Assembly: GCF_024169245.1 (NCBI RefSeq)
Contig: NZ_JALJWP010000001.1
Coordinates: 1,613,501 to 1,677,500, forward strand
DNA length: 64,000 nucleotides
Source of the DNA: Pseudomonas koreensis
GTDB taxonomy: Bacteria > Pseudomonadota > Gammaproteobacteria > Pseudomonadales > Pseudomonadaceae
Direction: 5' to 3'
Part shown: positions 14,951 through 55,675 of the stretch, piece after piece
How the letters are laid out: each line of letters opens with the position of its first letter
How positions within the stretch are numbered: the stretch's first letter is position 1
Translations under genes and position numbers: made by a program
Notes under the pieces: generated by a model
The model's input: the letters and a program-made list of their open reading frames with translations, nothing else
Told to the model about the DNA's origin: nothing
The model's database searches: none

Positions 14951-15358
14951 ATGCCAGCTTCATTTCCTGCAATAAATCCGCGTGAACAACTCGACGTCCC
15001 CGAGGCCGGTCGCGTTGCGTTGAAGTTCTTCTTCAACCTCATGGAACACTGGGGTTGTAATGCCGAGCAGCAACGCACCCTGCTTGGTGGCGTCGGCAAC
15101 ACCACGTTCTACAAGTACAAACACCTGCCGAACATACGTCTCCCGCACGACACCCTTGAGCGCATCTCCTACCTGATGGGCATTCACAAGGCGTTGAGCA
15201 TCATCTTCAGCAACAGTCGTGAGCGCGCTTACGCCTGGGTCAGCAGCCCGAACACGGCAGCGCCGTTCAATGGCAAAACGGCGCTGGATTACATGCTGGC
15301 GGGCAGGGTGGTCGACATCGCCGATGTGCGCCGCTACCTCGATGGAGTCCGCGGTTGA
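14951..15358 (+). CDS. Xre/MbcA/ParS-type antitoxin of a RES toxin
   Basis: The 135-residue protein has an N-terminal Xre-like helix-turn-helix (about 15-75, with LLGGVGNTTFYKYKHLP) and a C-terminal DUF2384 (toxin-binding) domain, ending NTAAPFNGKTALDYMLAGRV then DIADVRRYLDGVRG. This matches ParS/MbcA antitoxins, which bind and block RES-domain toxins and repress their own promoter. A strong AAGGAGG lies 6 nt before the ATG. The stop overlaps the TTG start of the toxin by 4 bp, the normal coupled antitoxin-toxin order. Confidence 0.92.
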   Translation: MPASFPAINPREQLDVPEAGRVALKFFFNLMEHWGCNAEQQRTLLGGVGNTTFYKYKHLPNIRLPHDTLERISYLMGIHKALSIIFSNSRERAYAWVSSPNTAAPFNGKTALDYMLAGRVVDIADVRRYLDGVRG

Positions 15359-16035
15359 AAGCGCCGGCGCTGGTCGACGTGCCATGGCCGCGCGCCTATC
15401 GTATCGTCAACAGCAGCTTCCCGCCGATTGCGCTATTTGAAGATGTCCTCGACCCCGAAGACCTCGAAGTCGCCTACGCCATCGAAGCGCTGACCAATGA
15501 TCGCTTGATCGAACAGGCCGGCGTGCTTTCCCGGGTGCGCCCCGAAGATCGCCTGTCGGGCCCCGGTTCCAGCCCAGTGATGGCCGCGTTCACTCATGTC
15601 GGCAAACGCAGCCGGTTCAGCGACGGCACCTTTGGCGTCTACTACGCTGCCAGCAGCCAGGCTGCGGCCATCGCAGAAACCTGCTATCACCAGGAACGTT
15701 TCCTCGCGTCCACCAACGAAGCGGATCTTGAGTTGACCATGCGTACTTACGTCAACCGGGTGATCAAGCCGCTGCATGACGTTCGCCATGACTTCGAACA
15801 CTTGCATCAGCCTGATCCGCAAGCTTACGGGCCATCCCAAGTGTTCGCGCGGGAGCTGCGCGACGCCGAGTCGTGGGGCTTGCTCTATAACAGCGTGAGA
15901 TTGGCGGGGCATGAATGCGTTGCGGCGTTTCGGCCCCCGGCGGTTTCGATTCCGAAGCAGGGCAAGCATTTGCGGTATGTGTGGAGTGCGAGTCAGCAGA
16001 GGATTTCGTTTGTGTTTGAGGTTAGTCAGGTCTGA
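15355..16035 (+). CDS. RES-domain toxin (NAD+-targeting)
   Basis: This is a 226-residue RES-family toxin. The family is named for conserved Arg, Glu and Ser, which fit GKRSRFSDGTFGVYYAAS (Arg), AAIAETCYHQERF (Glu) and YNSVRLAGHECVA (Ser). Characterised members either degrade NAD+ (MbcT) or ADP-ribosylate a metabolic enzyme (ParT). The start is a TTG overlapping the antitoxin stop, preceded by GGAG at 7 nt. No in-frame ATG lies near it, so low-efficiency initiation may help hold toxin below antitoxin. The gene is intact and has no sign of inactivation. Confidence 0.92.
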   Translation: MKAPALVDVPWPRAYRIVNSSFPPIALFEDVLDPEDLEVAYAIEALTNDRLIEQAGVLSRVRPEDRLSGPGSSPVMAAFTHVGKRSRFSDGTFGVYYAASSQAAAIAETCYHQERFLASTNEADLELTMRTYVNRVIKPLHDVRHDFEHLHQPDPQAYGPSQVFARELRDAESWGLLYNSVRLAGHECVAAFRPPAVSIPKQGKHLRYVWSASQQRISFVFEVSQV

Positions 16036-16113
16036 AACGCAGAAACCGTAGCGTCAACGAGGGCCGAGTGCGAACTCGTAATCAGATGGTAGCCTGAGCG
16101 TCCTGGGTGCCAG

Positions 16114-16151
16114 TGCAACACTTATGTTGCATGCGCATCAAATATGTTGCA
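16114..16151 (+). promoter_or_regulatory. Inverted and direct repeats upstream of hicAB (candidate HicB operator)
   Basis: A perfect inverted repeat TGCAACA-N4-TGTTGCA (16114-16131) is followed by a third half-site TGTTGCA (16145-16151). The TATGTTGCA copies start exactly 20 bp apart. The cluster ends 32 bp before the hicA start, where an autoregulating HicB should bind. Confidence 0.55.
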
Positions 16152-16183
16152 CATTCGCTCTACCGAAACAGCGAGTGATGCAC

Positions 16184-16366
16184 ATGAAGTACAGCGAGTT
16201 TCGGCGATGGTTGAAGGCCCAGGGCGTTGAGTTCCAAGCCGGCAAGGGCAGCCACTTCAAGGTTTCGTTGAATGGCAAATCAACTGTGTTTCCCGACCAC
16301 GGAGCCAAGGAAATGGGCGAAGGGTTGAGAAAAACGATAATAAAACAGTTGGGCCTCAAGGATTGA
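16184..16366 (+). CDS. hicA: HicA-family mRNA interferase toxin
   Basis: This 60-residue toxin has the double-stranded RNA-binding-like HicA fold. It starts MKYSEFRRWLKAQGVEF and contains the catalytic His motif GKGSHFKVSLNGKSTVFPDHGAKE, then the Lys-rich helix EGLRKTIIKQLGL. HicA cleaves mRNA in the cytosol. The start given matches the family; in-frame ATGs at 16124 and 16178 would add non-family residues. hicB follows 31 bp downstream. Confidence 0.93.
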   Translation: MKYSEFRRWLKAQGVEFQAGKGSHFKVSLNGKSTVFPDHGAKEMGEGLRKTIIKQLGLKD

Positions 16367-16397
16367 GGCTCTGCTGTACCCCATGAGAGGAAGCGTG

Positions 16398-16823
16398 ATG
16401 TTCGAATATGCCTTGGAGGTTCACGAAGAGCCGGGCAGCGTGTGGCTGACTTGTGCGGCGATTCCAGAGATGCACGCGGTCGGCGATACCCTCGGGGAAG
16501 CGTTGGCTACCGCCATCGATGCGATCGAGACAGCATTCTCCATCTATGTGGATGACCGCCGGTTGATCCCTACTGGTCATGCTGGAGAACAGGAAAACGA
16601 TGTCGTATTGCGTCTTCCTGCACTGACTGCCGCGAAGGTTGCGCTGTGGAATACGCTTTTGGAGTCCGGTGTCAGCAAAGCCGAACTGGCGCGTCGTCTT
16701 GGCGTGCAACGGCCACAGGTCGACCGGCTGGTTGATTTCCTGCATCACTCCAAGATCGAGAATGTTGAGCGTGCGTTGCAGCAGCTTGGGCGGCGTATTT
16801 CGCTTTCGGTTGAAGCTGCATAA
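16398..16823 (+). CDS. hicB: HicB-family antitoxin with helix-turn-helix domain
   Basis: The 141-residue protein has a partial RNase-H-like HicB domain (about 1-70: EYALEVHEEPGSVWLTCAAI, then GDTLGEALATAIDAIETAFS) that blocks HicA. A C-terminal Xre-type DNA-binding domain follows, with GVSKAELARRLGVQRPQVDRL as the helix-turn-helix. GAGAGG lies 7 nt before the ATG at 16398; the ATG at 16383 is less likely. The order toxin then antitoxin is normal for hicAB. The repeats upstream of hicA are its likely target. Confidence 0.93.
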   Translation: MFEYALEVHEEPGSVWLTCAAIPEMHAVGDTLGEALATAIDAIETAFSIYVDDRRLIPTGHAGEQENDVVLRLPALTAAKVALWNTLLESGVSKAELARRLGVQRPQVDRLVDFLHHSKIENVERALQQLGRRISLSVEAA

Positions 16824-17179: not shown

Positions 17180-17821
17180 ATGGATCTACACCAGGAGTTT
17201 GAAAGCAGCAAATTCTTCCACCGCTCCCGTATTGATCGTCGCGCCGCCGATGCCCTGGTCGGATTGGCCGCCGGGATTACGGCCGACGGTGATGTGAGCG
17301 TCACCGAAGCGGTTTTTCTAAAGCGATGGTTGGAAACCAATCTCGCGCATCTGAACGATCCGGTGATCAATCTTCTGTATTCGCGCTTGGCGTGCATGCT
17401 TCAGGACAATGCTCTGGATAAGGATGAGTCACTGGAGTTGCTCAACATTCTGCGTGGTTTTTCTGGAGTGAGCATTGAGAAACCGAGGGTTAGCGGTGCT
17501 GTTACCGTTACTCCTACGGATCTTCCTTTCAACTCACCGATCCCTGATTTGATTTGGGACGGCCGGATGTTTGTATTTACCGGTGTCATGGCCTTTGGGC
17601 CGCGTAAAGATTGCCAGGCGTTAGTCGAAGAGCGCGGCGGTTTGATTGGGGGCAGTGTGAGCAAAAAGGTGCATTACTTGGTGGTCGGCAGCGTGGGTAA
17701 CGAACAGTGGCGCCACAGTACTTATGGAACGAAGATCATAAAGGCAGTGGAGCTACGTGAGGCGGGAGCTTCGATTGCCATTGTTGGTGAGGACCATTGG
17801 CAAAAGATGCTGTTTGGTTAA
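17180..17821 (+). CDS. TerB-like / BRCT-domain protein
   Basis: The protein is 213 residues. Residues 1-95 are helical and acidic (ADALVGLAAGITADGDVS, then EAVFLKRWLETN), resembling a TerB-like helical bundle. Residues about 125-213 form a BRCT domain: GRMFVFTGVMAFGPRKDCQ, ALVEERGGLIGGSVSKKVHY and LVVG motifs as in the BRCT repeat of NAD-dependent DNA ligase. BRCT domains bind DNA ends or phosphopeptides, so a DNA-repair or exonuclease-accessory role is possible. AAAGGAAAA precedes the ATG. It lies between the toxin-antitoxin cluster and the tRNA-Thr island boundary, and its role there is unknown. Confidence 0.8.
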   Translation: MDLHQEFESSKFFHRSRIDRRAADALVGLAAGITADGDVSVTEAVFLKRWLETNLAHLNDPVINLLYSRLACMLQDNALDKDESLELLNILRGFSGVSIEKPRVSGAVTVTPTDLPFNSPIPDLIWDGRMFVFTGVMAFGPRKDCQALVEERGGLIGGSVSKKVHYLVVGSVGNEQWRHSTYGTKIIKAVELREAGASIAIVGEDHWQKMLFG

Positions 17822-17949: not shown

Positions 17950-18017
17950 CCAGAAACAACAAAGCCCCTGCATTTCTGCAGGGGCTTCGTTTTGTATGGT
18001 GCGGCACCAGGAGTCGA
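17950..18017. repeat. Distal attachment-site repeat (tRNA-Thr 3' remnant) of the island
   Basis: This 68-bp segment matches 23089-23157 with one substitution and one deletion. It includes a copy of the tRNA-Thr terminator hairpin and the last ~22 bases of tRNA-Thr. The tRNA part is then lost, which is the pattern left by integration at a tRNA 3' end. Confidence 0.88.
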
Positions 18018-18190
18018 GTTCATATTTAATCATATGATAAGTAAGTGATTTTTCTGAGTGTAGCGTTCGCTACCTCTTAGATTATCCTAATAGGTGAACT
18101 TGAGGTTTGTCATCGCTTTGTAAGGAAAAGACTATTTAGTTAGTCCGCTGTTTAAGTTTCTTGCGTCAGCGATGTTTGGGCTAAAGATTT

Positions 18191-18721
18191 TTACTCTTGT
18201 TTGCCTTTGTTGATGGCTTCGCTAATCAATTTGAACGCATCTGAGTTGCTAACAACGTTAAGCTTGTCGCTACTATATGCGTTGGTAAGATGAAGTAAGG
18301 CCATAGTTTGAAGATTTAAAATCTCGACTTCGGAAATTATTTTTCGAGATTTTGATTTGTCATACATTCGTCTATAAAGAACGTCGGCAGCGCTTGCGTT
18401 AATAAAGAAAATTAAATCCGGCTTGAGCTGCATTAAAGCCTCAATCGGTACCCAGAATTCTGTATTTTCGGTCTCGATCACAGCATGGAATTCGACGATG
18501 GTATTCTTGTTGACCTTTTTTAATGAGGTGTAGGCTGTAATTAACTGCCGTTGATTGATTGATAAGGAATCGCTTCCGATTTTAGAGATTTCAATAGGGC
18601 GCCCTATTTGTTTCAGTAATGTCGATGCTGATAGTCCGACGTATTCTGGGTTGGTCGAAACCAGCTCTTTAGTTAGTGTGGATTTTCCTGATCCGGCTAT
18701 CCCAAATAATGCGATATGCAT
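18191..18721 (-). CDS. P-loop kinase-like ATPase of the island
   Basis: The 176-residue cytosolic protein has a Walker A motif near its N-terminus (FGIAGSGKST) and hydrophobic strands KPDLIFFINAS and NTIVEFHAVIE, matching the small adenylate-kinase/AAA_18-like nucleoside or polynucleotide kinases. A lid-like stretch YRRMYDKSKSRK may supply catalytic arginines. It directly follows the ASCH gene with no intergenic base (the ASCH stop abuts its ATG), so the two form one operon. Low GC content marks it as acquired. Substrate and role are unknown; a nucleotide or RNA 5'-end kinase is one possibility. Confidence 0.72.
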   Translation of the reverse strand: MHIALFGIAGSGKSTLTKELVSTNPEYVGLSASTLLKQIGRPIEISKIGSDSLSINQRQLITAYTSLKKVNKNTIVEFHAVIETENTEFWVPIEALMQLKPDLIFFINASAADVLYRRMYDKSKSRKIISEVEILNLQTMALLHLTNAYSSDKLNVVSNSDAFKLISEAINKGKQE

Positions 18722-19141
18722 TTAAAAGTCTCGCTTGATTAGGTCGAAGATTATGTCTTGTGCGACATAGCAGTATGACTGAGGGGGGGTAATTCCCGCC
18801 GCTCGAAGGCTATCTAGTGGCACCTTTCTGTTATACTCGATAACATTGTCTAAGTGAATAGCGAAAGCTTCGTTGCTGTTGTGGAAATAGCTGTCGAAAT
18901 TTTCTTTAGAGATGCAGGCTTTTTCAAACGCTATCTGCTCTATTGCTAACGGCGAGCTAAGCTGAATGCTGGCGATTGTTGCTTCGCCTGCGAGCATCTT
19001 TACTGGAGAGCTTGAATAGATGTATATTCTCCTGCCTGGCTTGAAAAGTACCCCGATTTTTTTTCGTAGCTCGACAGTTTTAGCGCCACTAAAAATCATT
19101 GAGCTATACTGTGGCTTAATGCTAATTATGATTTCTGGCAT
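18722..19141 (-). CDS. ASCH-domain protein of the island
   Basis: This 139-residue protein has the ASCH/PUA-like signature at its N-terminus: ISIKPQYSSMIFSGAKTVELRK, with the ligand-pocket Lys and Glu in KTVELR, then GRRIYIYSSSPVKMLAGEATI. ASCH domains bind RNA or modified nucleosides; some members are nucleoside amidohydrolases or RNases. It is the first gene of an operon with the P-loop ATPase. It is divergent from the membrane protein gene, with only 27 bp between the two start codons. GC is low. Confidence 0.8.
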   Translation of the reverse strand: MPEIIISIKPQYSSMIFSGAKTVELRKKIGVLFKPGRRIYIYSSSPVKMLAGEATIASIQLSSPLAIEQIAFEKACISKENFDSYFHNSNEAFAIHLDNVIEYNRKVPLDSLRAAGITPPQSYCYVAQDIIFDLIKRDF

Positions 19142-19168
19142 GATGTATTAGGTTCTAAGGAAAGTTTT

Positions 19169-20287
19169 ATGGCTAAAAGCTTAGCGTTTTGGCTCGAAGG
19201 AATCAACACTGAGGACCATGAAATTGACCTGCATGTCAATTACTGGTTGTTGCATCAGAATACTGATAGCGAGCTCAGTTACCTAGATATTGGTGTAAAA
19301 TTTTCCGGGTTGCATGATCCTAGTAATGTGGGCGGGAATATTAACGTTTACTTCCCGTTCAAGATTACCAATGATAACTATCATCCTGGGCTAGGTGAGT
19401 TGGTATGTTCGCGTACAGATCTCATCCAAACAATATTTAACGCTAGGCATAAGTCTACGTCCAATAGTTCCAATACATCAGTTGATATTGAGTTCGAAAG
19501 CAAAAAAGAAGACATCCTTAGAGTGTTTACTCAGATATCTTGTAGCCCTGAAAATGGAGGGGTAAGAATAGTAGATACGGATGAAGGGTCCACGCTGTTG
19601 TTTCCGCTGAAACTACTCAGCGTAACAAAGAAAACAGATCCTCAGTTGCCCGAGCAGGAGGATGAAAAGGGTAAAATATTACCTGGCTATATCCGTTTTC
19701 GAATAAAGCTTGGTGCGCAAGAGACTAAGGTTTTGTCTCAAAGCTACAAGCATAGTGATAGCTTCATATTGAGTCGTCTGGAGTCAACCGAGATCGTGGA
19801 CTTTAGACTGAATGAGGTTCGAGATCTGCCTGGTATTGTGCAATCTAAGAACTTGATTGGTGCGGGAATCAAGAATATTCATTTTTTCCTGATACGTGAA
19901 GTTGACTCGGAGTATAAGCAGGCTCACGCAAATTTTCACAGATGTAGGCTCTTGGAGAAAGAGCTCTGGAATGAGTATTTAAGCTTGCAGCCTAAAGACA
20001 AAATGGCTCCAAAGCAAATGCTTATTTATCACTGGAAAGAGTCCGGTAAGATTGACAAAGACTCAAGTGAAAAACTACAAGCGCCCATTGAGAAGTTCAC
20101 TGCGTTTGCGAAGTTTAGCAAGATTACGGTTACATACAAGAATTTGTTTTTGTTTTTGTTCTTTGCACTTGTGATAGGTGCGGTGTCTGGGGCTATGGGA
20201 AATGTGCTATTTAATTTCGTTGGAGATGTAGGCAGCGCGGTAATTGATAAGGTTGTTTACTTGCATGATGTACATTCTAAGAAATAA
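19169..20287 (+). CDS. Unknown protein with a C-terminal membrane anchor (island)
   Basis: The 372-residue protein has no signal peptide. Residues 1-290 look soluble and mixed alpha/beta, 245-310 are charged and helical, and a strong hydrophobic helix lies at about 325-348 (LFLFLFFALVIGAVSGAMG). A shorter amphipathic segment follows. The topology suggests a cytosolic domain tethered to the inner membrane by its C-terminus. AAGGA lies 8 nt before the ATG. It is divergent from ASCH-ATPase, 27 bp apart, so the promoters must overlap coding sequence. No family was recognised. By context it may be the membrane-acting component of an island system. Confidence 0.7.
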   Translation: MAKSLAFWLEGINTEDHEIDLHVNYWLLHQNTDSELSYLDIGVKFSGLHDPSNVGGNINVYFPFKITNDNYHPGLGELVCSRTDLIQTIFNARHKSTSNSSNTSVDIEFESKKEDILRVFTQISCSPENGGVRIVDTDEGSTLLFPLKLLSVTKKTDPQLPEQEDEKGKILPGYIRFRIKLGAQETKVLSQSYKHSDSFILSRLESTEIVDFRLNEVRDLPGIVQSKNLIGAGIKNIHFFLIREVDSEYKQAHANFHRCRLLEKELWNEYLSLQPKDKMAPKQMLIYHWKESGKIDKDSSEKLQAPIEKFTAFAKFSKITVTYKNLFLFLFFALVIGAVSGAMGNVLFNFVGDVGSAVIDKVVYLHDVHSKK

Positions 20288-20306
20288 GTTGAGATATATA
20301 AAGTTC

Positions 20307-20334
20307 TTGCAAAAAACAGTGGAAATGCTAAAAT
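20307..20334 (+). promoter_or_regulatory. Candidate promoter for the island GNAT gene
   Basis: TTGCAA (20307-20312) and TAAAAT (20329-20334) are separated by 16 bp in the 85-bp gap before the GNAT start. Confidence 0.45.
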
Positions 20335-20372
20335 GCTTGTCATAACGCTATTTGAAGTGTAGGGAGAGGAAA

Positions 20373-20840
20373 ATGATTGCAACTACTGTGAGGCCGGTCA
20401 TACGCTATGATTATCTTAGCGCAATGAGCGTTGACTTCATGTTCATTGCAAACCATCTCTCAGCGATTTCCCATCTTTATCCTGGGTTTAAAGAATGGCT
20501 TTACTTCAAGTTTAAGCCAGATTTTTTAAATGGGTCTAGGGATATACTGGTTGCGTACGATGGCAATAATATCGCTGGATTGTCGTTGTTGAAGTTCAGT
20601 GATTTTGAAAATAAAATTTGTACTTTTTATGTTATGCCAGCATACCGTGGCTTGAGCATTGGACACGAGCTTATGAATAGGTCTCTTTCGTTCCTGTGCA
20701 AACGAAATGTTTTGATATCTGTCTCTCAAGAAAGAGAGACTGAGTTGTACCCTGTTCTGAAAAATTCAGGTTTCAGGCTAGACCGTAAAGTTGAAGGCGC
20801 TTACCGCTCTGGAGTGGTCGAAAGTTTTTACTCCGTCTAG
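20373..20840 (+). CDS. GNAT-family acetyltransferase (island)
   Basis: The 155-residue protein is a compact GNAT fold. The central strand is DILVAYDGNNIAGLSLLKF, and the acetyl-CoA loop reads CTFYVMPAYRGLSIGHELM (R-G-x-x-I-G). The C-terminal LYPVLKNSGFRLDRKVEG pairs with the substrate face. GGGAGAGGA lies 3 nt before the ATG used; an in-frame ATG at 20352 lacks a ribosome binding site. It has its own promoter and terminator. GNAT toxins acetylating tRNA exist, but their usual ribbon-helix-helix antitoxin is absent here, so the substrate is open. Confidence 0.82.
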   Translation: MIATTVRPVIRYDYLSAMSVDFMFIANHLSAISHLYPGFKEWLYFKFKPDFLNGSRDILVAYDGNNIAGLSLLKFSDFENKICTFYVMPAYRGLSIGHELMNRSLSFLCKRNVLISVSQERETELYPVLKNSGFRLDRKVEGAYRSGVVESFYSV

Positions 20841-20856
20841 CTTTTAGCTTTTCACC

Positions 20857-20894
20857 GAAAGCCCATCGCATATAAATGCCTTGGGCTTTTTATT
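20857..20894 (+). terminator. Rho-independent terminator after the island GNAT gene
   Basis: AAAGCCCA pairs with TGGGCTTT across a 16-nt loop and runs into TTTTTATTT. Confidence 0.75.
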
Positions 20895-21864
20895 TGGTCT
20901 GGATTTTAATACTTAATTTTTAATTATATTGGGAAATATTTAGATTCCGCGCTAACCCTCTTTGTCTTACCCTAATGCGTTATCCTAGATATTTCCTCTT
21001 TCATTCACATCGCTTTCCCAAAGTTTAAGATTTAAAATCCCCCCGTCATCCCGCCAAGAATGCTGAGTGTTGTCAGGCATCAAGGCCCCGCGACCTGTGA
21101 GGGTTGTCCGCTAACGCGGGACTGACGGCTCTTTACGGCCGGGAGCTTGGGCATCTCATGATCTGGCCTCCTTAACACTTCCGCGGAAGTGGGCGGGTGG
21201 AGGCTACGCTGGCTGATGAGGCCGGCGCCGCGAGATCTTGAGTCAGGTGAAGGCAGTGATGCTGTGACCGGGACATGCCTGACTATCAGTCAGGTGCAGT
21301 CCATTCCGTGGGCTGGGGCACCATCATCTGCATCGCTGTTGCTGGTGACTTCGGTGTTTGTCACGCCGATTGTCACGAGGGGAAAGCCGCAAAGCCTTGT
21401 ACGATATGGGCTGCAGCAGCGGTACGAGCGCCCGTCTCTTTCCGGGAGAAAGAGACGGGCGCAGGTTGGCGCAATGAAATGGCCAAGCGGATAGGTTGCT
21501 GCAGGGCAGCTATGAAAGGGAATGAGTTGCCGCAGTGGGCACACTGGTAAAAGTAGGCATCCATCACATCGCTGTGACCGTGCAAGCCGCCGGAAGCTAA
21601 TCGCGTTTTGGGAGAACCACCACGGTGTGGCGTAGCCTCAAAGGTTCTGGCTACCTGGGTTGCTGTCAACGACAGCGCTTTGCCCGATCTTTTCTACGCC
21701 TGTGGAAAACTCGGATTAAGGCTCGAGTTTCTGGGAGTTTTGCTGCTTTGTCTGAAATTATCTGTCTTTAGCAGTCTGTGGTTTACGACCTACATTTCGC
21801 TTTAGGCAAGCGCTCGCTCCTGGCACTTCTCCGGGCGGAATGACAAAAAACTTCGGGCTTCCTT
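20895..21864. other. About 1 kb in the island with no confident gene
   Basis: The first ~150 bp are AT-rich; from about 21050 the composition turns GC-rich again, so the island is a mosaic. Several overlapping short frames exist on both strands (for example 21189-21494 on + and 21373-21669 on -), but none has a good ribosome binding site plus a recognisable domain. The minus frame has a YQCAHCGNSFPF zinc-ribbon-like CxxC. It may be eroded backbone of an integrative element. The strongest feature is the hairpin at 21428-21462. Confidence 0.4.
21428..21462. other. Perfect 15-bp stem hairpin, not a standard terminator
   Basis: GCGCCCGTCTCTTTC and its exact complement flank a 5-nt CGGGA loop. 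There is no T tract on either side, so it is not a canonical terminator. It could be a structured RNA, a replication or transfer site, or a protein-binding palindrome left from the mobile element. Confidence 0.6.
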
Positions 21865-22854
21865 TTACTCCAAACACCATTGCGGTTGACGTTTCCAGTC
21901 CTCTGGAAATCCCATAAGTTTCAAATAACCTGGCTCTCTCTGGTCAATCATTTCGGCTAAGTGAAATTTCCACTGACTGTCTGGACTGATCAAATCGGTC
22001 AGATACGCCAGCATCGTTAGCACTATATATAGGCGCTGCTTGGGCTGAGGTCGGTCGCCAGGTGCATTTTGAATGACCCATTCTTTAGGTAAGGATGGTC
22101 TGATCGAGAGCTCTCTGTTCCATAGTCGTGAGTGGTGGGCGCAGCAGTTTCGAATGAAGCTCAGAGTGTGGAGCCAGGAAGCCAGTACTTCGAAGGGGAG
22201 ATTGAATCTGCTCGCGATCGTTTTTTTGTCGACGCTTTTGCCTATGGCATTGAACAGGGTGGAAACCGTTCCGAGGCTAAGTTCTTCTAGAACTGCCCAG
22301 GCGGGCGGCAACTCGGGATGGGAATAGGTTGATCCGTAGAATCGAAAATAGTTATCGCGGGTGCGATTTTCAATTCGCTGCTGCTGGATCTGATCTGCTC
22401 GGCTGCTCCTTTTTATACGATCAATCTCACGTCCCAGTTTGTTGCGCTCCTTGCTCAGTTGATCTCGCAGGGGCCGCAATAAATCCGAATGTGAATATGA
22501 CGAGGAGAAGATTGGCGCGTGAGCTATCCAGTCAGGCCCGTACTTCGGGCACATGTGATTGCTGATAGTCGCTCGTATGGCGACTTCGACACGTTCGATA
22601 ACATCCATCGTTATACGTCGCAACGAGCCATCGAAGCGGTAGATGTCGACGACTGCTTTCAGAGTGCTGCCAGGCTTGAAGGTGTGTTCAGGGTTTGTTT
22701 CTTGAAAAGGGCGCATGTAGGGACTCAGGCGAAACAGCGTGACCACTTCCAGGAAACGCATGACGCGGTCGTCGTTTGCGAATTGCAGGCCTCATTGCTT
22801 TAGCAGTTCCAATTGCTGTTCTACGCTGAGGGCCTGCTTATCGAAGGGCCTCAT
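21865..22854 (-). pseudogene. Abi_2-family abortive-infection gene with an in-frame stop at codon 21
   Basis: Translation from the ATG at 22854, which has GGAG at 8 nt, reads MRPFDKQALSVEQQLELLKQ, then TGA at 22794-22792. It continues in the same frame GLQFANDDRVMRFLEVV and on to 21865. The N-terminal part matches the Abi_2 (AbiD/AbiF-like) start, where the residue at the stop is commonly a basic Arg, so a CGA-to-TGA change is the simplest cause. The remaining frame keeps the family core, including RNCCAHHSRLWNR (an Rx4-6H-type HEPN motif). Reinitiation at ATG 22761 (298 residues) is possible but has no Shine-Dalgarno and lacks the first helix. Family members mediate phage abortive infection, probably as RNases. 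Confidence 0.8.
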
Positions 22855-23088
22855 GTAGTTTTCTCCAGGCAAAAAAACCCGCACGATTTGAGCTTGCTGA
22901 CTGGGTCAACCTAGGCTTGGCGGGTGTGTTGGGGTGCATTATAGGTAGGTGCAAGAGCCCATCAATGTTGGGCTGATGTGAAATTGTAACGACTCGAGGT
23001 GCGGAGGGCGGAGTTCGGTCCGTTGATTGAGATAAGGCGTCGTTGGTTTTGTCGCCCCAATGTGGAAGTTCCTGGGGAGTTCCAAACG

Positions 23089-23135
23089 CCAGAAACAACA
23101 AGGCCCCTGCATTTCTGCAGGGGCTTCGTTTTGTA

Positions 23136-23157
<22 letters not shown>
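23089..23157. repeat. tRNA-proximal attachment-site repeat of the island
   Basis: This 69-bp direct-repeat partner of 17950-18017 runs from just beyond the tRNA-Thr terminator into the T-arm of the intact tRNA gene. Confidence 0.88.
23103..23124 (-). terminator. tRNA-Thr terminator hairpin
   Basis: GCCCCTGCA pairs with TGCAGGGGC across a 4-nt loop, 12 bp beyond the CCA end of tRNA-Thr; on the minus strand it is followed by CTTGTTGTTT. It lies wholly inside the att repeat. Confidence 0.75.
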
Positions 23158-23211
<54 letters not shown>

Positions 23212-55429: not shown

Positions 55430-55453
55430 ACGCATGGCCAAAGCAATAAAAGC

Positions 55454-55675
55454 GGGAATCCCTGACCTGCCTGTATCAGGGTTCCCAAAACGGGGTGGAC
55501 CTCGCTTGAGCGGCGATCCGGTGTAAAGAGGGAACCCCCGGCCTGCCTGTACCAAGGATCCCAAAAGGGTGGGCTCGTCGCGTTGCGGTATGAGCCCGGT
55601 GTAAAGAGGGGAATCCCCGGCCTGCCTGTACCAAGGTCCCCGAAACGGGTGGTGAATCGAATCACCTGTAGAAGG
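55454..55675. repeat. Three-unit tandem repeat (units of about 76-79 bp)
   Basis: Units begin at 55454, 55530 and 55609 and share a core GGGAATCCCCGGCCTGCCTG followed by TACCAAGG-TCCC, an A-rich spacer with GGTGG, and CGGTGTAAAGAG at the end of the first two. The first unit is most diverged (CTGACCTGCCTGTATCAGG). Unit lengths are not multiples of 3, so the repeats are not read as one protein. They follow the LRR gene, and the third unit merges into unrelated sequence. Confidence 0.85.

Follow-up and report, generated by a model that had tools for sequence, protein, structure and literature searches.

We analysed a 64,000-nucleotide stretch of Pseudomonas koreensis DNA (hereafter the window), in which a segment of about 5 kb, bounded by direct repeats, adjoins a tRNA-Thr gene. 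The segment carries a four-gene module consisting of a P-loop nucleotide-kinase-like protein (KIN), an ASCH-domain protein, a tail-anchored protein (TAP) and a stand-alone GNAT acetyltransferase, followed by a block with a radC RNA motif and by a gene of the Abi_2/AbiD family (Table 1). ASCH and KIN form one unit, with KIN as the second gene at a spacing of 0 bp, and TAP starts 27 bp from ASCH on the opposite strand. The genes that a sequence-only reading of this DNA had listed, namely ASCH abutting a P-loop gene, a divergent membrane-anchored protein 27 bp away, GNAT and Abi_2, were all located.

Table 1. Features of the tRNA-Thr island, in window positions.
Feature	Position	Strand	Description
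Distal attachment repeat	17950..18017		host terminator and tRNA-Thr 3' end, with a 1-nt deletion; 68 bp
KIN	18191..18721	-	P-loop nucleotide-kinase-like, AAA_17, 176 aa; Pfam PF13207, E 1e-11
ASCH	18722..19141	-	PUA-like, putative RNA-binding/ribonuclease type, 139 aa; PADLOC PDC-M11B, E 4.8e-30
TAP	19169..20287	+	372 aa, beta-rich domain and one predicted C-terminal membrane helix; no named family
GNAT	20373..20840	+	stand-alone acetyltransferase without EVE, 155 aa, ATG at 20373; Acetyltransf_10, E 5.8e-8
radC block	21031..21765		common to nine related islands or elements
radC RNA motif	21557..21690	-	Rfam RF01754; 74.6 bits, gathering 40, E 4.8e-12
Abi_2/AbiD-family gene	21865..22761	-	298 aa from an internal ATG; PF07751, E 7.4e-45; PADLOC AbiD, E 3.7e-53
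In-frame stop upstream of the Abi_2 ATG	22792..22794	-	removes N-terminal codons of the 335- and 347-aa homologues
Proximal attachment repeat	23089..23157		terminator and tRNA-Thr 3' end; 69 bp
tRNA-Thr (TGT)	23136..23211	-	integration target

The module recurs elsewhere as a unit. KIN(-), ASCH(-), TAP(+) and GNAT(+) occur in the order and orientation of the window in Stutzerimonas (L002), P. kielensis (L003) and Pseudomonas R37 (L005), with proteins 36-86% identical to those of the window, so the proposed search for the four proteins as a set in other genomes found them together. Across 25 TAP loci (the window and 24 others, of which L078 and L079 were found through GNAT-EVE, a GNAT fused to an EVE domain), the partners were ASCH at 23, GNAT-EVE at 19, KIN at 12 and stand-alone GNAT at 12; the loci are not all independent, L065-L069 being 98.0-99.8% identical over TAP, GNAT-EVE and ASCH. 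Both loci without ASCH are cut, L070 by a contig end and L004 with a shortened TAP that lies beside transposase-like open reading frames (judged by eye). Because no uncut TAP locus lacks ASCH, a chance neighbourhood was rejected. Stand-alone GNAT was found only alongside TAP in the locus sets examined.

TAP itself is sparsely distributed. It was detected in 3 of 398 same-genus genomes, where three of nine ASCH matches had TAP beside them, and in 1 of 293, 1 of 369 and 2 of 398 genomes in samples of the order, class and phylum, the window's own genome being included each time. Distant TAP proteins, 22-30% identical, lie on plasmids, chromosomes and viral contigs; no match was found in annotated phage records with two TAP queries. 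On Paracoccus pAK2 TAP accompanies an HTH-ASCH, a PIN-GNAT-EVE and KIN, and in Rhizobium NXC24 its partners are GNAT-EVE and ASCH, with a SIR2 gene close by. In Methylobacterium bullatum and in G1073 it occurs with GNAT, KIN, ASCH and GNAT-EVE, a set of partners repeated in Pseudomonas CIP-10 and G349.

The four genes are under purifying selection, with ratios of nonsynonymous to synonymous substitution (dN/dS) between the window and L002 of 0.16 for KIN, 0.12 for ASCH, 0.07 for TAP and 0.10 for GNAT, at a dS above 1. Pairwise distances of TAP correlate with those of KIN (r 0.91), GNAT (r 0.92) and ASCH (r 0.73). In the TAP tree the loci without GNAT-EVE (window, L002, L003 and L005) form one group with support of 100/100; the same group is weak in the ASCH tree (58/39), where the ASCH proteins of the PIN-GNAT-EVE-like loci L007 and L236 fall in the same open fork.

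TAP matches no named family in Pfam, PADLOC and other family scans. In all 41 TAP rows of the alignment the most hydrophobic 19-residue stretch is C-terminal, preceded by net positive charge in 37, and no N-terminal hydrophobic stretch exceeds 1.11. By Foldseek, the soluble domain may resemble the N-terminal beta domains of ribophorin I (OST1) and M1 aminopeptidases (TM about 0.3, 5-9% identity), from which TAP differs in being bacterial, tail-anchored and without a catalytic domain; even a shared fold would show no function. Against viral structures there was a single hit with E < 0.001, which at a TM of 0.16 is not credible, and absence from the VIA lists does not exclude a known fold.

The nearest solved natural relatives of KIN are adenylate kinases of the archaeal type. 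For ASCH the nearest solved relative is ZmASCH of Zymomonas mobilis (5gus, E 9.5e-11), for which its paper (PMC5615036) reports a Mg-dependent cleavage of single-stranded RNA that it terms weak. Three ZmASCH residues implicated in binding and cleavage of that RNA, Tyr47, Lys53 and Ser128, have kept counterparts in the window's protein (Y42, K48 and S122); the fold family is likewise the same, and the window's ASCH is a putative counterpart.

The closest solved sequences to GNAT are N-alpha-acetyltransferases, which also lead its VIA-align list. Some family scans of GNAT, Pfam and PADLOC included, used the protein without its first Met. Against the PADLOC model PDC-M11A, only positions 174-286 of 486 were matched (E 4.4e-6). 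No GNAT-EVE was present in the six frames of the window, a search in which L008 served as positive control, nor was one found in the window's genome, where no control genome was included.

These proteins place the module close to a predicted group of systems. The sequence-only reading had called it unrecognised and without a named system; this does not hold, as the combination of ASCH, AAA_17 and GNAT(-EVE) is described by Bell et al. 2020 (PMC7641849) and corresponds to the PADLOC candidate PDC-M11 for the GNAT-EVE/ASCH pair. According to that paper, GNAT-EVE is nearly always accompanied by ASCH and often by PIN and by an AAA_17 ATPase; toxin-antitoxin or defence roles are predicted there, and no module of these systems is said to have been experimentally characterised. 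In its main text TAP is not described: 'transmembrane' and 'tail-anchored' are absent and five 'membrane' passages concern other matters, although the figures may show it. Literature searches yielded no description of TAP either, and one for PDC-M11 by name gave no match. The window shares with (PIN)-GNAT-EVE/ASCH/AAA_17 systems a PDC-M11B ASCH, a nearby AAA_17 ATPase (frequent there, not invariable), a GNAT, and a mobile and defence-rich context. It differs in its short stand-alone GNAT, in the extra TAP and in the divergence of ASCH-KIN from TAP-GNAT. We did not file it as a PDC-M11 family member, because the defining GNAT-EVE fusion is absent. It is very probably a variant of the GNAT/ASCH/AAA_17 kind seated on a tRNA-Thr island, and it probably works alike. 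The best reading of the sequences would be a reduced, EVE-less variant with TAP as an additional, membrane-anchored fourth component. New here are TAP in the part of a conserved partner, its companion stand-alone GNAT, the EVE-less clade, and a tRNA-Thr island family with a one-base scar.

The 3' end of the tRNA is duplicated at both borders of the island, as in a tRNA-integrating island; the two repeat copies (68 vs 69 bp) differ by one mismatch and one 1-nt indel, and a 22-nt piece of the repeat has two matches within the window against none expected. The direct repeats of about 69 bp noted earlier are therefore real, but their derivation from the tRNA-Thr 3' end accounts for only 22 bp; the remaining 47 bp (about two thirds) are the tRNA's own terminator hairpin, which is single-copy in three relatives and present at both ends in the window. 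The description of the segment as AT-rich likewise fits only the four-gene part: G+C content is 40.3% at 18018-20860, 57.1% at 21031-21765 and 51.1% at 21765-23088, against 58.3% for the whole window, and the segment is composite. A promoter scan gave 13 sites against 7.2 expected and is not used as evidence.

The surroundings of tRNA-Thr were compared in 12 of the 38 genomes searched and in two further TAP genomes, one of which (G251) duplicates the locus seen in P. kielensis L003. Empty sites with a single repeat copy, as the sequence-only reading had suggested looking for, are present in G019, G011 and G017, with the window's terminator at 98.6, 97.1 and 94.2% identity. The radC block lies between distal scar and tRNA in five of the 12 (G016, G021, G002, G010 and G006) and is missing from seven, none of which has the window-type deleted scar. 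An identical one-base deletion in the distal scar, with the same island side, is shared by the window, P. kielensis, G016, G021, G002 and G010. In G006 and G349 the scar is without the deletion, and R37 (L005) is mixed, with the deletion present and the island side as in those two.

The five relatives that share both the window's scar and the radC block each carry at least one integrase. Next to the tRNA, Pfam identifies a 488-aa P4-type integrase in G006, G349 and R37 and integrases of 440 aa in G016 and 448 aa in G002; in G021 a 440-aa open reading frame occupies that position. A second integrase, like that of L003, lies with a 91-aa neighbour beside the radC block in L003, G016, G021, G010, G006 and G349 but is absent there from G002, R37 and the window; the L003 protein, the only one of these scanned for family, is an Integrase_1 (PF12835). 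In relatives the block begins just upstream of the Integrase_1 gene, which is missing from the window; there the sequence picks up again about 20 bp before the point at which this gene starts in L003. No integrase lies inside the window's island, as had been stated earlier, and the island integrases of three relatives, used as queries with no positive-control genome, had no match in the window's genome. Because the scar-sharing relatives keep integrases, this looks like loss: most likely the island lost its integrases and is now stranded, and it is best read as a degraded member of a tRNA-Thr defence island family. Like P4-type tRNA-integrating islands, the family combines duplication of the tRNA 3' end with variable defence cargo, whereas the window's copy differs in being without an integrase and in having the whole terminator in the repeat at both ends.

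Among the best 20 of 1086 and the best 20 of 880 phage and plasmid records, whole-island DNA matched mostly in the tRNA itself, and in the radC block in four plasmids. A 19-kb Pseudomonas putida plasmid (NZ_CP043577) combines the radC block with an Integrase_1-like gene and restriction genes. We rejected it as the excised circle of the island, as it has neither a tRNA-Thr attachment site nor a tRNA. The radC RNA motif has no clear intact gene downstream and sits in the common block of about 730 bp.

The Abi_2 gene retains its AbiD/Abi_2 domain in a frame that is interrupted upstream. We rejected it as part of the module; it is a separate passenger, since a relative occurs in only 2 of 22 TAP loci, the gene is present in G010 although the module is not, and the attachment scar separates the two in L005. 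In L002 the contig ends 122 bp after GNAT, leaving no verdict on that side. The position of the window's Abi_2 next to the tRNA is common to G010 and P. kielensis.

Other members of the family carry different cargo. In the five siblings that lack the module, ten island proteins were compared with PADLOC, and each island gave a match with E < 1e-30: HamB of Hachiman in G002 (E 0), CapP in G016 (E 5.6e-47), a type II methyltransferase in G010 (E 2.2e-42), a PRTase in G006 (E 2.4e-33) and a PD-T4-6-like kinase in G021 (E 1.8e-31). These matches are single genes, not complete systems; three of the ten proteins had no PADLOC match and one had weak matches only. In four of the five islands a defence gene lies between distal scar and integrase, the position of the module in the window; HamB of G002 sits past the radC block towards the tRNA, the position held by Abi_2 in the window. 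A dGTPase (PADLOC, 7.4e-76) stands beside the module in R37. With empty sites and siblings carrying known defence genes, the earlier view of an accessory, defence-like island was borne out. Some sibling cargo is little known: a 1063-aa ATPase-PRTase fusion (L053 4794-7985), a 722-aa protein whose C39-like match is weak (L045 6042-8210), a 450-aa protein without a PADLOC match (L047 6044-7396) and an ORC-CDC6-like protein (L052 1234-3249).

Outside the island, a BRCT-domain protein (window 17180-17821) adjoins the distal scar, and in G002, too, the scar is flanked by a related end. Further left (window 15355-16823) are a RES-domain gene (PF08808) and a HicA/HicB-like pair; a HicB relative is also found at the island border in G016, and RES close to the empty sites of G019 and G011. 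The NrsZ small RNA (RF02695) lies at 55435-55653 (-) and, taken with the relatives found, is in keeping with a Pseudomonas chromosome.

We suggest that the four proteins form a membrane-tethered, RNA-directed growth-arrest or defence module on a decayed tRNA-Thr island, the best explanation overall and one that we believe slightly more than we doubt. TAP would be anchored in the inner membrane, its beta domain facing the cytoplasm, and would gather KIN, ASCH and GNAT there. ASCH would bind, and perhaps cut, single-stranded or modified RNA, while GNAT, as an enzyme of N-alpha-acetyltransferase type, may acetylate a free alpha-amine on a charged tRNA or a protein N-terminus, and KIN could act as a nucleotide-driven switch. 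Upon phage entry or another insult the complex would be released and translation slowed, so that the infected cell stops making phage. That the module serves defence we regard as reasonably probable; the biochemical details are tentative and may well turn out otherwise.

Several points weigh against this proposal. The activity of the four-gene set is a prediction, and genomic neighbours are no proof of function; the correlated distances, moreover, are partly shared descent. TAP is accessory to the GNAT-EVE core: among 80 viral-contig loci picked by GNAT-EVE, ASCH was present in all and TAP in 12, and among loci picked by ASCH, TAP was present in 9 of 80 (these being the best 80 of 123 and the best 80 of 173, some cut by contig ends). 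KIN is missing from 13 of the 25 TAP loci, and a switch role would therefore not be general. Five aligned ASCH proteins linked to GNAT-EVE do not retain Lys53 of ZmASCH. For GNAT, the leading Foldseek hits include polyamine and streptothricin acetyltransferases as well as NatC, and the substrate class proposed above is therefore tentative. Finally, motif A of GNAT, for which we assume the pattern Q/R-x-x-G-x-G/A, departs from it in the window (RGLSIG) and in L003 (RDNDIG); some members of the clade may therefore have weak activity or none.

Two alternatives survive best, and we consider each unlikely. In the first, the set would serve a prophage or island, aiding it against restriction by the host or against rival phages, and would not defend the host, a role similar to one suggested for GNAT-EVE by Bell et al. 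(PMC7641849). On ten viral contigs (L061-L069 and L071) TAP, GNAT-EVE and ASCH stand in a row with a repressor-like gene upstream in all ten and a P2-type integrase-like gene downstream in nine (by eye), and many TAP-less GNAT-EVE/ASCH pairs show similar surroundings. The islands of the window and of the examined siblings, however, hold defence genes, with no phage structural genes seen among their scanned open reading frames; the account also overlaps with defence, as superinfection exclusion would be both. In TAP-less GNAT-EVE/ASCH viral contigs other proteins often occupy TAP's upstream place and may be alternative partners (202 aa with a hydrophobic stretch, 260-261 aa, and 315 aa; L107, L118, L122, L126, L128-L130, L132 and L149-L151).

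The second alternative is an addiction module, in which GNAT or ASCH would be the toxin and a partner the antitoxin, and the set would only keep the island in the chromosome. The island does persist though no integrase was found, and GNAT and ASCH of such a kind are predicted toxin-antitoxin parts according to Bell et al. (PMC7641849). Like type II GNAT toxins, the window's GNAT is small and could plausibly acetylate an alpha-amine. It differs from them in being closest to N-alpha-acetyltransferases among solved sequences and in standing with ASCH, KIN and TAP and no antitoxin-type neighbour; Pfam finds neither an RHH nor an HTH domain in any of the module's four proteins or in Abi_2. An addiction pair would not need as many as four genes in two divergent units, and sibling islands with the same backbone persist without the module.

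Acetylation of a phage or host base by GNAT, with ASCH reading the mark (Iyer et al. 2013, via PMC7641849), is improbable: ASCH and EVE domains do belong to the PUA superfamily that binds modified bases, but an EVE reader is lacking and the GNAT's nearest solved structures are those noted above. We give very little credence to a TAP-GNAT membrane unit that would capture and acetylate free N-termini of phage-made or nascent proteins while ASCH cuts the matching RNA, a reading prompted by the possible aminopeptidase-N-like fold of TAP, the type of GNAT and the restriction of stand-alone GNAT to TAP loci in the sets examined. Decaying, non-functional cargo is just as improbable, since despite the missing integrases, the interrupted Abi_2 and the altered motif A, all four frames are open at the low dN/dS given above.

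The membrane-tethered module remains our preferred reading. The sequences themselves establish its anatomy, the joint inheritance of its genes, purifying selection on them, the scars of mobility and a neighbourhood of defence genes, while we infer both the individual biochemical steps and the defence phenotype. Prophages and defence islands commonly carry GNAT-EVE/ASCH modules, which were predicted years ago, and no test of them was found in the literature searched. A co-inherited membrane component would place some of the machinery at the inner membrane, and the module provides a compact four-gene set, free of EVE and PIN domains, that lends itself to cloning and testing. Islands at tRNA-Thr, with their interchangeable defence cargo and diagnostic one-base scar, offer a route to further systems.

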